DNA of 22,148 nt from a virus: IMG/VR virus record IMGVR_UViG_3300045996_000483, positions 1-22,148 of that record. One strand, given 5' to 3'. The position numbers and the translations under genes are program-made. Every line of letters begins with the position of its first letter. Position 1 is the stretch's first letter. The notes below the pieces were generated by a model, which searched no databases, was not told the DNA's origin, and saw only the letters and a list, made by a program, of their open reading frames with translations. This document shows positions 1 to 22,148 of this stretch, one piece after another.

Positions 1-404
1 CCCGTGGCGTTGTTTGCGCCGTCAGAAAAAAACGCATTCGCATTTGTCGGGGGATTATTTATTTCCGCGTCATTATTATTTCGCAAAACGTTTTCGCGAG
101 CGGTTTTTAATCCGAGCTCGCGCAACGCCTCGCCTAGTTCGCCGCCTGCCTTGCGGTTGCATGATGCATGGGCGGGTCGTACGCCGTCGTCGTCGCCGGT
201 TGCTAACGCGTGCGGGATGCCGACGTGGTCGAGGTCCCATGCCTGCCACGGTTCGACGGGGCGGGCGCATCGCGGGCATGGCATGGGGAGGCGTGTCTGC
301 CACCGTTGGCGCAACGCCGACCACGCGGCGGACGAGAGCTGTCGACCGTCGGCGTGGTTGTGGGCTCGATGGTTCGAGCGCTTGCGTGTCGTGGCGATAT
401 GCAA
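1..404 (-). CDS. HNH endonuclease (3' end cut by the window edge)
   Basis: The reading frame is open from a stop at about 423 to the left edge, giving about 134 residues. It holds a classic phage HNH pattern: CPRC, then WDLDHVG, then PAHASCNRKAGG. These are the zinc-holding CxxC, the catalytic Asp-His and the final His/CxxxN-type segment. The upstream part (SSAAWSALRQRW) is also typical of actinophage HNH proteins. The only start codon after the upstream stop is TTG at 404; no good ribosome site precedes it, so the start is uncertain. Beyond the HNH core the protein becomes Asn-rich with many AAT/ATA codons, clearly more AT-rich than its neighbours. Phage HNH proteins usually lie beside the terminase and help cut DNA for packaging. 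Here the terminase enters from the other window edge on the same strand, which fits that role. The fold call is firm; the packaging role is inferred. Confidence 0.85.
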   Translation of the reverse strand, partial: MHIATTRKRSNHRAHNHADGRQLSSAAWSALRQRWQTRLPMPCPRCARPVEPWQAWDLDHVGIPHALATGDDDGVRPAHASCNRKAGGELGEALRELGLKTARENVLRNNNDAEINNPPTNANAFFSDGANNAT

Positions 405-431: not shown

Positions 432-660
432 CTATCCATCGTTTCCGTTATCCACATTCCGCGCGCGCCCTACCTAAGCGGAACTAGCGACGGTAGGGAT
501 TGGTAGTCGGTTGGGTTTCTATTGGTATTCGTACTAACAGACTGCACACATACGTTAGGTGCCGAGTGCACACATACGTTAGGTCAGACTGCACACATAC
601 GTTAGGTAGAGGCTCGTCGGCGATAGTGGTTATCCACAGTTTCCACAGGCTGTGGATACC
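432..660. other. Putative replication origin (iterons plus DnaA boxes)
   Basis: This gene-free stretch between the HNH gene and the winged-helix gene holds a perfect DnaA box TTATCCACA at 448-456, another at 630-638, an inverted one (TGTGGATA) at 651-658 and a partial TTTCCACAG at 640-648. Three direct repeats (538-607) lie between the outer boxes. An inverted repeat CCCTACC (468-474)/GGTAGGG (492-498) sits inside. Iterons beside DnaA boxes are the hallmark of theta-type plasmid and some phage origins. No replisome gene is visible, so host DnaA-dependent initiation is plausible. The function is inferred; the repeats and boxes are directly visible. Confidence 0.6.
538..607 (+). repeat. Three iteron-like direct repeats
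   Basis: The 18-bp core TGCACACATACGTTAGGT occurs perfectly at 543-560, 567-584 and 590-607, spaced 24 and 23 bp apart, about two helical turns. Copies 1 and 3 match over 23 bp including the preceding CAGAC. Same-face spacing suggests cooperative binding of one protein. The winged-helix protein encoded just to the right (672-1061) is the natural candidate binder. The tail of the repeat (ACGTTAGGTAG) recurs at 5205-5215 in the central control region. Tandem operators are the alternative explanation. Confidence 0.85.
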
Positions 661-671
661 TAATGTCGTAC

Positions 672-1061
672 TCATAATGTGAGCTCGTAAACGGCGTTGT
701 TGTGGCGCTCACCATGCAACCGACCGACCTGTTTAATCAGCCCGGCGTCGACGAGCTCGCGTATCGCCCGCCCGACGGATGCCTCGGCGGCGCGGTCGTA
801 TTCGGTGCGCCCTAGACACGCCCGGGCGAGCCATTCCCACCCGCCCCAATATTGCGCGCGAGGCTTGGTTTTGGTGCCCGTGTCATGGGCGACGGATGCC
901 ATACCGAACAGCACGAGGCGCGCGGAATGGGACACACGCGCGGTACGCCCGGCGAGCCCGGCGCCCGCCGCCGCCGCCGTTAGCTCGTGTCCCACGACTA
1001 GGGATTTCGGCGTCGATAATGGCTCGCCCGCTCGACCTCTAGGGCCCGTACCAATTCGCAT
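672..1061 (-). CDS. Winged-helix DNA-binding protein, candidate replication initiator
   Basis: About 129 residues from ATG at 1061. The C-terminal 40 residues (SVGRAIRELVDAGLIKQVGR, then a short beta wing ending NAVYEL) form a convincing winged helix. The middle part (VAHDTG, YWGGWEWLARACLG) resembles actinophage helix-turn-helix proteins found in replication modules. It is the last gene of the leftward operon and its stop lies only 65 bp from the iteron array, so binding those repeats is a reasonable guess. The start is unsure: ATG at 1061 overlaps the upstream gene by 64 bp, while GTG at 995 would follow that gene's stop by 2 bp but would lose the residues TPKSL, which look family-like. Neither start has a clear ribosome site. 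The DNA-binding fold is fairly sure; the initiator role is inference. Confidence 0.75.
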   Translation of the reverse strand: MRIGTGPRGRAGEPLSTPKSLVVGHELTAAAAGAGLAGRTARVSHSARLVLFGMASVAHDTGTKTKPRAQYWGGWEWLARACLGRTEYDRAAEASVGRAIRELVDAGLIKQVGRLHGERHNNAVYELTL

Positions 1062-1267
1062 CGTTCGCACAATTGCCCGGGGTCGTTTTCCGCGCTCGTG
1101 AGGGTGCCGCATCGCGGGCACCTATTTCCTTGTCGGGCCCTATCGGCGTGCACTTCCCTTTTTAGGTGGCCGGTCGCGGTTAAACAGTCCTCGCCGGGCG
1201 CGGCATTACATACCGGGCAGGGATAGGAGAGGAATACCAATCGCCACGGGGAACGCTCGTTAACCAT
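998..1267 (-). CDS. Small protein with two zinc-binding motifs
   Basis: 89 residues, starting one base after the stop of the resolvase-like gene. Two cysteine clusters are visible. The first is C17-x2-C20 with C28 and H34/H40 (pattern CPVCNAAPGEDC...H), as in short actinobacterial zinc-finger proteins. The second is C50-x2-C53 ... C67-x2-C70, a four-Cys zinc ribbon. Such proteins commonly bind nucleic acid or act as adaptors, but no specific role can be read. It lies in the recombination/replication operon, between the resolvase-like and winged-helix genes. Confidence 0.75.
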   Translation of the reverse strand: MVNERSPWRLVFLSYPCPVCNAAPGEDCLTATGHLKREVHADRARQGNRCPRCGTLTSAENDPGQLCERCELVRALEVERASHYRRRNP

Positions 1268-5355: not shown

Positions 5356-5699
5356 GAACAGTACGGAGAGCAACGCAGGCGACCACGGTCGAGGATTTCG
5401 CCGCCGGATTGGGCGAGCGCGTTTTGCATTGCCGCGAGCTCGGGCACGTCTGGCGACCCTTGACCGTTCGTTGGGACAACGAGGCAAAGGCGTACGACCG
5501 GCGCCTACGTTGCTCGTCGTGCCGAACCGTGCGCGTACAGGTAGTCACAGGGAAGGGACACGTTTTGAGTAACCGATACGACTACGCCGACGGGTACCTC
5601 GCAACCGGCGTACAGGTCGGGCGAGGCAACCGCGACGTATTCAGGGCGGCGGCGTTGTCGAGGTTCCTCGACGCACACGCCGCCGACGAGGTCGCGTGA
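5352..5699 (+). CDS. Zinc-ribbon phage protein of unknown function
   Basis: 115 residues. A likely zinc site is made by C27 and H32 (LHCRELGHVW) with C54-x2-C57 (LRCSSC). The C-terminal part (NRYDYADGYLATGVQVGRGN, then RDVFRAAALSRFL) resembles small actinophage proteins found in regulatory regions. It is coupled to the zinc-finger gene by TGATG overlap. The pair is the only plus-strand operon in the window and faces the leftward operon. A regulatory or host-takeover role is inferred from position only. Confidence 0.75.
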   Translation: MRTVRRATQATTVEDFAAGLGERVLHCRELGHVWRPLTVRWDNEAKAYDRRLRCSSCRTVRVQVVTGKGHVLSNRYDYADGYLATGVQVGRGNRDVFRAAALSRFLDAHAADEVA

Positions 5700-6190
5700 T
5701 GAGTCAGAGAATCGTTATCGAATGCGACGAGTGCTTAGCGCTCGGCGAGGCGTCACGGGATGCGGTAACGGTCGAGGTTCGCGCTATGGGCGTCGAGGTC
5801 GAGGTCGACCTCTGCGACGTGCACGCGAAACCGCTCGCCGAAATGCTCGATAGGTTCGTCGAGCTCGGGCGTCGGCCCAACGAGGCGGGTCTATTGCGGG
5901 CGGCGTGTCCGCGTTGCGGGCGCAAGTTTGCCTCGCCGCAAGCGCTCGGGCGTCACGCGAAGGAGACGCACGGCGAGAGTGTGAACCAAATGCGCGGCAA
6001 GGCGGCGCCCGCCAATCCGGCGCCTGCGACGGGCGACGAGTACGCCTGCCCTGATTGCGGTCGAGGTTTCGCCACGCGGCAGGCTATCGCGGTCCACAGG
6101 CGCCGGGCGCACGGCGTACAGGGCGAATCTAAGGCGTCGGCGGCGCGGCGTCGGGCGCAAGGCGAGGACGGGGCGCCCTCGGGTGAATAA
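5699..6190 (+). CDS. Lsr2-like protein with two C2H2 zinc fingers
   Basis: 163 residues from ATG at 5699 (a GTG at 5696 is also possible). The first 60 residues (IVIECDECLALG ... GVEVEVDLCDVHAKPL) resemble the N-terminal domain of phage Lsr2-like proteins, with C9, C12, C39 and H42 able to hold a metal. Two C2H2 fingers follow: C70/C73/H86/H91 (CPRCGRKFASPQALGRHAKE) and C117/C120/H133/H138 (CPDCGRGFATRQAIAVHRRR). The tail is Ala/Arg-rich. DNA binding is very likely. Lsr2 is the AT-rich-DNA silencer of actinobacteria; fusion of a similar domain to tandem C2H2 fingers suggests a regulator or a mimic of host chromatin protein. Its end overlaps a convergent minus-strand ORF. Confidence 0.85.
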   Translation: MSQRIVIECDECLALGEASRDAVTVEVRAMGVEVEVDLCDVHAKPLAEMLDRFVELGRRPNEAGLLRAACPRCGRKFASPQALGRHAKETHGESVNQMRGKAAPANPAPATGDEYACPDCGRGFATRQAIAVHRRRAHGVQGESKASAARRRAQGEDGAPSGE

Positions 6191-8550: not shown

Positions 8551-8568
8551 CCGCTCGGTTTCGAGCGG
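8551..8568 (-). promoter_or_regulatory. Perfect hairpin in the leader of the integrase operon
   Basis: CCGCTCG (8551-8557)/CGAGCGG (8562-8568) with a 4-base loop GTTT lies between the promoter candidate and the start of the 157-residue gene. It has no T-run, so an operator or leader-RNA hairpin is more likely than a terminator. Confidence 0.4.
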
Positions 8569-8574
8569 AGCTCT

Positions 8575-8602
8575 AACCTAGCACACGGTCGCACATTGGC
8601 AA
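8575..8602 (-). promoter_or_regulatory. Promoter candidate for the integrase operon
   Basis: On the minus strand TTGCCA (8602-8597), a 16-bp spacer and TAGGTT (8580-8575) give a good match to a housekeeping promoter, with GC in front of the -10. It sits about 50 bp before the 157-residue gene and in the only sizeable gap between the lysis block and the integrase unit. Confidence 0.5.
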
Positions 8603-8637
8603 AACGTGGCCTCGTCCGCGTAGCGCGAATGTGCGAC
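8588..8637. promoter_or_regulatory. 10-bp inverted repeat overlapping the integrase promoter
   Basis: GTCGCACATT (8588-8597) and AATGTGCGAC (8628-8637) are perfect inverted copies 30 bp apart. The left copy covers the spacer and touches the -35 of the promoter. This is a typical operator layout for a dimeric regulator or a looped pair of sites; half-sites for the recombination machinery are another option. It could switch the integrase unit. Confidence 0.5.
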
Positions 8638-8651
8638 GGGTTGAGCGTGAC

Positions 8652-8798
8652 CTAGGCGCGGTCGCCTCGACGGCGCTCGGCCTCGACGCCTGCCGCAAGG
8701 GCGAGCCACGCGGCGCGCGTGTCCTCGTCGAGCTCGTTCCACGGGCCCAACAGGCGGGCGCCGTACCGAGTGAATATGTCGGGCGCGGGCTCGGTCAC
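8652..8798 (-). CDS. Small unknown protein (48 aa)
   Basis: GTG at 8798 overlaps the upstream stop (GTGA). The sequence (PDIFTRYGARLLGPWNELDE, then TRAAWLALAAGVEAERR) resembles short conserved actinophage proteins with two helices and a Trp-rich turn. No function is known. It is the last gene of the long late operon before the integrase control region. Confidence 0.6.
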   Translation of the reverse strand: MTEPAPDIFTRYGARLLGPWNELDEDTRAAWLALAAGVEAERRRGDRA

Positions 8799-8914
8799 GA
8801 GCGCGACCCTAGTAGGGCGACGAGCACGAGCACGAGCCCGACGGCGGCGAGCACGAGGCACAGGGCGGCGAGCATGTAGAGGCGCGTCGGCTCGCGGTAC
8901 GGCGCGGGCGTCAC
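8795..8914 (-). CDS. Tiny single-span membrane protein (39 aa)
   Basis: GTG at 8914 overlaps the upstream stop (GTGA). After a basic, Pro-rich start, residues 13-32 (YMLAALCLVLAAVGLVLVLV) form one clear membrane helix, ending in a short LLGSRS tail. Its place in the lysis block suggests a holin or accessory membrane protein, but one-span proteins have many jobs. Its reality is supported by overlaps at both ends. Confidence 0.6.
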   Translation of the reverse strand: MTPAPYREPTRLYMLAALCLVLAAVGLVLVLVALLGSRS

Positions 8915-9132
8915 ACGTTCACCCGTAGCGCCTCGACGGCGTCGAGCGGGGCGACGATCCTGTCGCCGTTGTGGGGCCCGCCTTGCACGGTCGCGGCGAC
9001 GTAGGCGCCTACGCCGTACGTCGTGGTCGGGCCGACCGTGAAGGATGCCGACGCGACCTCTACGTCGTGCACGTTCACCCATTCGCCGCCGAGCAACAGG
9101 GCGGCGATATCGGCGGCGTCTACGTCGATCAT
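8911..9132 (-). CDS. Small unknown protein (73 aa)
   Basis: ATG at 9132 overlaps the upstream stop (ATGA). The sequence alternates polar and hydrophobic residues (VNVHDVEVASASFTVGPTTT, then YVAATVQGGPHNGDRIV), which suggests an all-beta small domain. No cysteines and no membrane span are present. No family is recognised. It is linked by overlap to both neighbours. Confidence 0.65.
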   Translation of the reverse strand: MIDVDAADIAALLLGGEWVNVHDVEVASASFTVGPTTTYGVGAYVAATVQGGPHNGDRIVAPLDAVEALRVNV

Positions 9133-9302
9133 GCGGCGACCTCGACGACGGGCGCGTACGGGTTGAGGTTCTGCCATGTACGGGAAGCGAGCTCGGCGCG
9201 AATCGCGGCGGCGTCGTCGACGTGCCCGAGCTCGACACACCTAGCTAGGACGTGTTCTAGCTCGACGCGGGAGGTCGAGGCGAGCGGGAGGTCGAGCGCC
9301 AT
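9129..9302 (-). CDS. Small unknown protein (57 aa)
   Basis: ATG at 9302, ten bases after the stop of the 46-residue membrane protein. The peptide is mostly helical and acidic (STSRVELEHVLARCVELGHV, then DDAAAIRAELASRTW). No family is recognised. Its stop overlaps the next start (ATGA), which supports translation. Confidence 0.55.
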   Translation of the reverse strand: MALDLPLASTSRVELEHVLARCVELGHVDDAAAIRAELASRTWQNLNPYAPVVEVAA

Positions 9303-9311
9303 AGGGACACG

Positions 9312-9452
9312 TTACCGCTCGTCGCGGTCGCGTCGGTTGCGACGTTCCATGATGAGCGTTATCCCGTACCCGCGTACGACGGCGGCGAGCAGGACGAGCG
9401 CGAACGGCGCGACGACGAGCACGAGCACGAGCACGAGGGCGCGGTCGCTCAT
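9312..9452 (-). CDS. Small membrane protein with basic tail (46 aa), holin-like
   Basis: ATG at 9452 overlaps the stop of the EEP enzyme (ATGA). Residues 5-25 are strongly hydrophobic (ALVLVLVLVVAPFALVLLAA), and the last 12 residues are almost all Arg, Asn, Asp and Glu (ERRNRRDRDER). One membrane span with a charged cytoplasmic tail fits a small holin or antiholin. Lying in the lysis block supports this, but the assignment is inferred from form and place. Confidence 0.6.
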   Translation of the reverse strand: MSDRALVLVLVLVVAPFALVLLAAVVRGYGITLIMERRNRRDRDER

Positions 9453-10225
9453 CCTTGACGTGTCCACTTCCGTACGACGAGCTTATGGTCGCTCGCGGGC
9501 GTATCGAACGTTTTAGCGTCGCCCTCGGCTTTTACCTTTTGGCCCTTTATCCACCAGTCGTACGTCGATTCGCCGTGCGTATTGGGATAGGGCCCGCCCG
9601 CTAATACGAATTCGTTAGGCATCCAATCGTCGACGCGTTGCTTAAACCAATTGCATTCGCATTTCTGGTTCCAATCGGCGGCGATGATTGTCGACGCGCC
9701 CGCCCTATCCCATTTGTCGCGCAATCCCTGTAACCACGGCCCGAGCGCTTTCATGCTTTCGCGGAATTGGTCGCCGCGCGTACCGTCGCCCGCGTTATTC
9801 CACCAGACATTACAGCCATTGTTATCGGTTGTATTCGCGGGCAAATGCAGCGTCGCTATTAGCCAACGGTCGCCGTTGGATAGGCGGTGAAACAATCCGG
9901 CGAGCGCCACGGTATAGGGCGCCTTAGCGCCGCCCTCGCGGGTGTATCGCTTATCAGAGAGCTTTTTATGCGCCCTTTCCTCTAACGCCCATTGCGACGT
10001 ATCCCATGCAAATGCATTCTCGTCGGAACCGACCGGGTCGCCCTTTGGCGGTTGCCACGTATCCCAACCCAATTCGTCGAATTTCGCGCGCCCCGCTTTA
10101 GCGGCGTCGTCCTCGTGTACCTCGGTAAATGTGCATAGCGAGCATTTGTCGACGACGAGCTTTGCGGCTTTTCGGAATTGCTCGGGCGTATCGTCGAACC
10201 GCGAGGAATGGTGGCCGAGCATCAT
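9449..10225 (-). CDS. Endonuclease/exonuclease/phosphatase (EEP) family enzyme
   Basis: 258 residues. The EEP (DNase I-like) motifs are in order: TFTEVHE with the metal-binding Glu, LIATLHLP with the conserved His, STIIAADWNQK (the D-x-N motif), STYDWW with Asp, and PASDHKLVV (the SDH motif with the catalytic His). The family cleaves phosphodiesters or phosphate esters (DNase I, sphingomyelinase, inositol phosphatases), so the substrate cannot be fixed. It sits between two tiny membrane proteins in the lysis block, an odd place for a nuclease. There is no signal peptide. Its codons are noticeably less GC-rich than those of neighbouring genes, suggesting recent acquisition. Host DNA degradation is one option. 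Confidence 0.85.
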   Translation of the reverse strand: MMLGHHSSRFDDTPEQFRKAAKLVVDKCSLCTFTEVHEDDAAKAGRAKFDELGWDTWQPPKGDPVGSDENAFAWDTSQWALEERAHKKLSDKRYTREGGAKAPYTVALAGLFHRLSNGDRWLIATLHLPANTTDNNGCNVWWNNAGDGTRGDQFRESMKALGPWLQGLRDKWDRAGASTIIAADWNQKCECNWFKQRVDDWMPNEFVLAGGPYPNTHGESTYDWWIKGQKVKAEGDAKTFDTPASDHKLVVRKWTRQG

Positions 10226-20585: not shown

Positions 20586-22148
20586 CTAGTAGACGAAAAA
20601 CGCGAGCGGTTCGGCGGTCGAGGTCGACGATTCGGCGACACACCACGCGGCGGCGTGCAGCAGGTCGGCCCTAACGCCCCTGTGTGCCTGCTGGAGGGCC
20701 CCTGTAGCGGTCGGGAGTAGTCCGACGGTGGTGACCTGCGTCGCGAGGCTGTCGTCGCCGCTATGGGCAATTTTCCCGGTACGGGCGAGCGAGCGAAGCA
20801 AGGGCAACCCGGCGCCCGTCGCGCCCGCCGCGACCCGCTCGACGCTCGCGCCGGGCAACCAGTCGCGCGCCTCGCTCTCGACGAGCGTTCGCCCGAGCAG
20901 CACCCGACAACCCTCGCGCCGCCCGACGGTGAAGCTCGCCCACGCGTACGCGTCGCTCGCCGAGTCGAAAGCGCCGCCCCACACCAGTAGGCGACCGTCG
21001 GCGAGCTCGACGCACGCGGCGGCGGCGGCGCGTAGACCTAGGTAGTCGTCGACGGCGACGACGAGCGGCACGCCCTCGGGCGGCGACGCGTACAGGTCGG
21101 CGAGGTTGCCCCAAAGCTCGGCGTCGACAAGCGGCTCGGGTACCGCGTTCGACACGATCCGACGACGCGGCCACACATTCAGGAATTGCGCCCTAAACGA
21201 CGCCTCGGGGTCGTCCTCGTCGGGGTCGATCGACTGCCCGGCATTCACCCGGGCGAGCTTGTTCTCTAGCAACCGTTCCCGGGCAGGCGACCAATACGGC
21301 GACGCCATGCGCCACGCGTCGCGGTCGTCGATAGCGGCGTCGGCGGGCGCCGACCATTCGACGATGAGCGACGCCGTCGGCGTGTCGCTATGTCCGTTAT
21401 TAAGCGACGCGAGCAACGCCGCCCGGCGTACCGGCACGAGCGCCGTACAACGACGATGCGCCGTCGAGAACAGCACGAGCTGCCCCGACTCGATTTCGAC
21501 CAACGTCGGCTCGATACCGTCCTCGACGATAGTCGCCTCGACCGCCCACGCCTCGTCGAGTAGCGCGAGCGTCGACGTGTACCCGTACACGCTGCCCTGT
21601 GCACGAATCAGCCACCGCGATTCGCTCGGGCTCCTGATTTCTTCCTGCGCGTTCGTCTCGCGGACGATCCACCCTTGCTCGCGCGCCCACGGTCGCGCCC
21701 GGCGCTGGATTTCCCGGCATACCGCCAAATCCTTGCCCGTGTGCAAAACCAGTTGCTCACCGCTAAACACGTCCTCGGCCACCATGCGCCACAACGCGAG
21801 CTCGCGAAGGGCGTACGACTTCCCGACCTGCCGCGCCGTCGACACGAGGGCGTCGATCCACACCAGTACGCCGTCCGCGTCGTGTTCCAAAAGGCGCGTT
21901 AACGCAAGGCGTTGCCAATAACGCAATTCGATACCGCGATTAGCGGCGAATTCGATAACCAATTCGCCATAACTACCGACGGCGTTTTTATGCGGCGGCG
22001 ACATAAGCCTCGGCCACGTCGCATTATCGGGAACGTCGAGAAAAGGGATAAGCCAATCGGCGCTTTTCCAAATAGCGTCATTAGGGCCCGGCGTAATCGG
22101 GTCGGGCTCGTCGTCAAATGCTGAATTCGGGGGGATAGAGAGCCCGGG
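20586..22148 (-). CDS. terL: Large terminase subunit (5' end cut by the window edge)
   Basis: The frame is open to the right edge, giving 520 visible residues. The ATG at 22004 is probably internal, because the 48 codons in front of it read as protein (IPPNSAFDDEPDPITPGPND, then WKSADWLIPFLDVPDNATWP) and resemble the usual terminase N-terminus. The ATPase domain has the Walker A-like ARQVGKS and Walker B LALLDEAW. The nuclease domain has VAVDDYLGL and the late acidic segment RADLLHAAAWC. It drives DNA packaging and cuts the concatemer. The stop overlaps the portal ribosome site. No small terminase gene is visible; it may lie beyond the edge. Confidence 0.93.
   Translation of the reverse strand, partial: PGLSIPPNSAFDDEPDPITPGPNDAIWKSADWLIPFLDVPDNATWPRLMSPPHKNAVGSYGELVIEFAANRGIELRYWQRLALTRLLEHDADGVLVWIDALVSTARQVGKSYALRELALWRMVAEDVFSGEQLVLHTGKDLAVCREIQRRARPWAREQGWIVRETNAQEEIRSPSESRWLIRAQGSVYGYTSTLALLDEAWAVEATIVEDGIEPTLVEIESGQLVLFSTAHRRCTALVPVRRAALLASLNNGHSDTPTASLIVEWSAPADAAIDDRDAWRMASPYWSPARERLLENKLARVNAGQSIDPDEDDPEASFRAQFLNVWPRRRIVSNAVPEPLVDAELWGNLADLYASPPEGVPLVVAVDDYLGLRAAAAACVELADGRLLVWGGAFDSASDAYAWASFTVGRREGCRVLLGRTLVESEARDWLPGASVERVAAGATGAGLPLLRSLARTGKIAHSGDDSLATQVTTVGLLPTATGALQQAHRGVRADLLHAAAWCVAESSTSTAEPLAFFVY

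Follow-up and report, generated by a model that had tools for sequence, protein, structure and literature searches.

A probable lambda-type iteron replication origin beside a winged-helix gene in a temperate siphovirus of about 22 kb

The intergenic segment between an HNH endonuclease gene and a small winged-helix gene was analyzed in an entire IMG/VR virus record (22,148 bases; hereafter the window), which is the near-complete genome of a temperate siphovirus of ~22 kb. Read on the minus strand, the genes follow the order terminase large subunit (TerL), portal, major capsid protein, tape measure and tail genes (tail genes being named by eye). The other genes are those of a serine integrase, an exonuclease, RecT, an Hjc-like resolvase, a zinc-finger protein, the winged-helix protein and HNH (Table 1). 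The sequences of most relatives found by TerL begin close to a run of C, at most some tens of bases upstream of TerL, and L014 and L028 span the HNH/TerL junction with HNH upstream. On these grounds the cos end probably lies between HNH and TerL, at the window edges, and the window represents about the full genome. HNH runs directly into TerL in the window, L014 and L028, with no small-terminase-like gene found between them. Cultured phages with related TerL proteins are phages of Gordonia, Arthrobacter, Corynebacterium and Curtobacterium, and the host is therefore probably an actinobacterium. No match was obtained by megablast of the window against phages, nor with its RecT as query. An earlier note on this DNA, made from the sequence alone, had pointed to a serine integrase and to a lack of phage replisome genes. 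The integrase is indeed present, here as in all five (near-)complete genomes of the set. The second statement holds with a rider: using positive controls, we found no DnaB, DnaC/IstB or ParA-type ATPase in these five genomes, window included, while recombination genes (RecT, YqaJ-like exonuclease, Hjc-like resolvase) are carried by the window.

Three repeat units of 23 nt are located at 538-560, 562-584 and 585-607 (spacing 24 and 23) and share an 18-mer core, TGCACACATACGTTAGGT, which is perfect in all three. They start ~65 nt past the stop codon of the winged-helix gene and form the strongest tandem array of the window genome, with a score of 54/54, whereas 60 dinucleotide shuffles of the whole window did not exceed 41. 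The repeat is weakly palindromic, and its exact sequence had no match elsewhere in the IMG/VR viral collection. Both perfect TTRTCCACA-type DnaA boxes of the window fall in the 432-660 region. The looser motif TTWTNCACA has three matches in the window compared to 0.22 expected, a number reached by none of 100 shuffles. The description in the earlier note, i.e. three perfect 18-bp repeats at 23-24 bp spacing with two perfect DnaA boxes and an inverted one, is thus confirmed, with one mismatch in the inverted box. Iterons, DnaA boxes and, judging by sequence, a candidate unwinding element are all present in the window, as in iteron plasmid origins.

Table 1. Positions of the putative origin elements and neighbouring genes in the window
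Feature	Positions	Strand	Basis
HNH endonuclease gene, truncated by the window edge, after the putative origin	3..404	(-)	
Distal DnaA box TTATCCACA, perfect	448..456	(+)	
CGCGCGCG tract beside the distal DnaA box	461..468		
A/C-rich strand with ACCAA repeats, candidate DNA-unwinding element	488..532	(-)	
Iteron 3	543..560	(+)	
Iteron 2	567..584	(+)	
Iteron 1, closest to the putative initiator gene	590..607	(+)	
DnaA box TTATCCACA, perfect	630..638	(+)	
Weaker DnaA box TTTCCACA	640-647		
DnaA box GTATCCACA, one mismatch, inverted	651..659	(-)	
Winged-helix gene, putative initiator, 107 aa, GTG start	672..995	(-)	alignment of 11 homologues, PHROGs, AlphaFold2
Small zinc-finger protein (Phage_zn_bind_8), immediately upstream of the putative initiator gene	998..1267	(-)	
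Terminase large subunit (TerL)	20586..22148	(-)	

The winged-helix gene can also be read as 672-1061, as the earlier note had it, or as 672-1121. Its start is most likely the GTG at 995 and not 1061, because the corresponding M/V-G is the first position in all relatives and because the zinc-finger gene upstream extends to 998. The AlphaFold2 model of the resulting 107-aa protein is a winged helix (pLDDT 89), with which the protein ends: there is no C-terminal helicase-loader domain and the genome has no P gene. Among 11 members of the family, the most-matched PHROGs are those of replication initiation, namely phrog_270 (8 members) and the O-like phrog_391 (4 members, E 3e-4 for the window) and phrog_678 (4 members). 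E-values of these matches are modest, and no TerS PHROG is among them. Direct profile comparison with lambda O was not significant, and no Rep_3/RepA-type Pfam match was found. Foldseek of the model against the PDB returned generic winged helices, mostly regulators and none with E below 0.001, an IclR regulator was the sole match of the profile to PDB sequences, and tblastn of the protein gave no match in viral contigs and phage records. On sequence criteria, the 107-aa protein is plausibly an iteron-binding initiator.

Relatives were gathered with HNH and TerL profiles, and eleven distinct phages possessing the winged-helix gene, window included, were compared. In nine of them an array of three to four units at 22-25 bp spacing directly follows the ~107-aa winged-helix gene. 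Conservation of the repeats in related phages was what the earlier note had made its reading depend on; the array does recur, at the same place and spacing, with a different sequence. It is clear in the window, L053, L054, L056, L057, L059 and L061 and weaker in L052 and L060; its identity score exceeds chance in seven phages and stays within the shuffle range in the latter two. The array detector gave nothing clear in L055, where palindromes are visible in an irregular arrangement, or in L058, where none are visible. The unit sequence differs from genome to genome, and most units are palindromic (in relatives, for example, CCTGACAACAGTGTCAGG, GGTTCACGCCGTGAACCC, GGGGCCAACCATTGGCCCC and GGTGGGTGATGACCCACC). 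The shared order is winged helix, array, ACCAA strand, often CGCGCG, in some genomes a DnaA box, then HNH, inferred cos and TerL.

Motif frequencies were tested after the sequences had been seen, and the p-values are accordingly descriptive. ACCAA occurs 16 times in the 600 nt following the iterons compared to 34 times in 32.4 kb (10 genomes pooled, p 4e-16), and the CGCGCG tract CGCGCGCG is enriched in the putative origin regions (pooled, p 8e-9). All nine occurrences of the DnaA box TGTGGAYAA in 136.8 kb fall in the 5.6 kb of putative origin segments (p 3e-13), and all nine have the same orientation. A DnaA box within one mismatch is absent from 5 of the 11 phages (L054, L057, L059, L060 and L061). 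DnaA therefore cannot be the universal loader, and phages devoid of good boxes must either follow another loading route or contain degenerate boxes. Phages with more similar recognition helices also tend to have more similar iterons (Mantel r 0.26, p 0.03; partial p 0.05); the helix block had been picked by eye beforehand. The clearest pair is L052/L054, in which the helix is 80% identical, the rest of the protein 30%, and the half-site CTGACA is common to both. As for GC skew around 430-660, a comparison proposed in the earlier note, three of four genomes have their minimum no more than 620-740 bp away from the site, but a significant amplitude was obtained for a single genome.

When the protein profile was the only query, 395 actinomycete genomes yielded six homologues. 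In all six cases the homologous gene has the best three-unit array of the 3.3-kb locus next to it or within it, and a perfect TTRTCCACA-type DnaA box (TTATCCACA/TTGTCCACA) is near the gene in three. The full series of iterons, A-rich segment, CGCGCG (CGCGCGCG) and TGTGGATAAC is present in L074 and L077. The integrated element L074 encodes a tyrosine integrase and an SSB, and no TerL or HNH match was found in the 17 kb read; tblastn of the window proteins in loci L073 to L078 detected no TerL, and HNH in L073 only. Since the unit occurs in L074 without packaging genes nearby, the putative initiator-iteron unit appears to be independent of packaging and of a late operon. In the homologue L067 (252 aa) the repeats are located within the gene and follow its winged-helix part, as in lambda O. 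More distantly, a Nocardioides prophage encodes a 266-aa initiator-like protein (L041:8873-9673) with 24-bp repeats in the gene, which stands directly before HNH. As a side observation, L074 and L077 are small integrated actinobacterial elements, possibly satellites.

The arrangement was compared to known systems. In ori-lambda, as in the window, iterons of ~18 bp follow a winged-helix domain at steps of 20-24 bp (the lambda iterons being 20, 24 and 23 bp apart), and an asymmetric segment adjoins them; the window protein has a modest match to O-like PHROGs. The lambda iterons are imperfect palindromes, as are those of most window relatives. Unlike those of lambda O, the window iterons lie outside the gene; among the relatives, L067 and the more distant L041 alone have repeats inside it. 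Furthermore, in contrast to lambda, the putative initiator of the window has no C-terminal helicase-loader-binding half, there is no P, and DnaA boxes are added. Iteron plasmid origins (P1 oriR, pSC101, RK2) likewise combine repeats, DnaA boxes and an unwinding element, and host DnaA and helicase would be expected to act in both. They differ in that the window protein is not of the Rep_3/RepA type, that partition genes are absent and that most window relatives have palindromic rather than plain direct iterons. On the whole, the arrangement resembles lambda O/ori-lambda, an origin used in lytic replication, more than it resembles the Rep_3 origins of plasmids. The cluster AN phages (Courtney3, Decurro) resemble the window by an O-like winged-helix gene near HNH at the right end of the genome. 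This gene, gp23, is labelled replication initiation O-like in NC_028692 and contains palindromic repeats spaced by 20/25 bp, after which comes an A/C-rich strand. In contrast to the window, the cluster AN protein has 222 aa and a cysteine-rich (zinc-ribbon-like) tail, and there is no integrase; its sequence does not match that of the window protein. According to the paper on the cluster AN Arthrobacter phages, the way in which they initiate replication is unclear (PMC5679792). A cluster EE phage and RRH1 exhibit weak or ambiguous repeats only. We found no account of the winged-helix/iteron arrangement in the literature searched, and other journals may have one.

The 430-672 region is thus very probably where DNA copying starts in the window phage. 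Judged from its sequence features, it is likely to be a replication origin of the lambda iteron type, with an initiator reduced to DNA binding and with DnaA helping in some members. The sequence shows the elements, their order, their recurrence in relatives and their statistical excess. The 107-aa protein would bind each of the three iterons, spaced by ~23 bp, probably as a dimer, and would strain the adjoining A/C-rich ACCAA segment until it opens. Host DnaA on the boxes flanking the iterons would then bring in the host helicase and replisome, so that DnaA would apparently have taken over the task of the missing helicase-recruiting half of O, in the manner of iteron plasmids. For the lytic cycle we infer theta replication by the host replisome, RecT, exonuclease and resolvase presumably serving the later, recombination-dependent formation of concatemers.

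Three other explanations were considered. One is a packaging site, with the winged helix as small terminase subunit and the repeats as R sites of the cosB kind close to cos. A winged helix is common in small terminases, no small-terminase gene separates HNH from TerL, and ~540-610 bp lie between the repeats and the inferred cos end. We nevertheless regard this explanation as unlikely: the PHROG matches are to replication initiation and not to TerS, DnaA boxes are concentrated at the repeats, in L074 the gene-array unit is accompanied by integrase and SSB, the 17 kb read having neither an HNH nor a TerL match, and the repeats of L067 are inside the gene. As no recognisable small terminase was found, part of the job of the winged helix could still be packaging. 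Somewhat more doubtful is a transcriptional role, in which the winged helix would regulate the late HNH-TerL operon through three upstream operators. The intergenic location between early and late genes would suit it, as would a fold whose nearest solved structures are mostly regulators, though none with E below 0.001. Against it, the array is inside the gene in L067 and beside the gene in chromosomal elements lacking the late operon, and DnaA boxes and an ACCAA strand are unexpected for an operator. Finally, origins of the P1 or pSC101 type combine iterons with DnaA boxes, and the earlier note had proposed a plasmid-like origin of a phage switching between integrated and episomal states. Its iteron/DnaA-box origin leaning on the host replisome is retained, but a plasmid-type origin of an extrachromosomal prophage is very improbable, given the absence of a ParA-type ATPase from five genomes, the serine integrase in 5/5 of them, the closer likeness to lambda O/ori-lambda and the fact that in the extrachromosomal mycobacterial prophages described so far parABS replaces the integration cassette (PMC7157519).

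Beyond the window, we propose only tentatively that a widespread, undescribed class of origins may exist in actinobacterial phages and small integrative elements, with a one-domain DNA-binding initiator, fast-diversifying iterons and helicase loading wholly by host factors (DnaA where boxes exist, otherwise e.g. DciA). A lambda-type origin at 430-672 would provide a concrete, testable origin-initiator pair for small actinophages such as cluster AN. It would also belong to a natural series from lambda O, with repeats within a two-domain initiator, to plasmid-like origins with a DNA-binding domain only, repeats outside the gene and DnaA boxes. The varied protein-iteron pairs would form a natural data set on winged-helix specificity.

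Some minor observations concern other genes. Small HTH proteins upstream of HNH in distant prophages (L032, L039, L042 and L043) were considered as TerS candidates and rejected: they had no PHROG match, and the L042 protein, the only one compared, showed no significant similarity. A 258-aa protein of the window (9449-10225), with no Pfam match, appears by eye to be an enzyme of the endonuclease/exonuclease/phosphatase fold. In L076, a tyrosine-integrase-like protein (8557-9837) matches the Lsr2 DNA-binding domain (PF23359). A 164-aa window protein (5696-6190, plus strand) combines an Lsr2 dimerization-like domain with two C2H2 zinc fingers; it is near the integrase, is transcribed opposite to its neighbours and is a candidate repressor or silencer. 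By eye, it is resembled by the product of L012:6106-6576 (minus strand).
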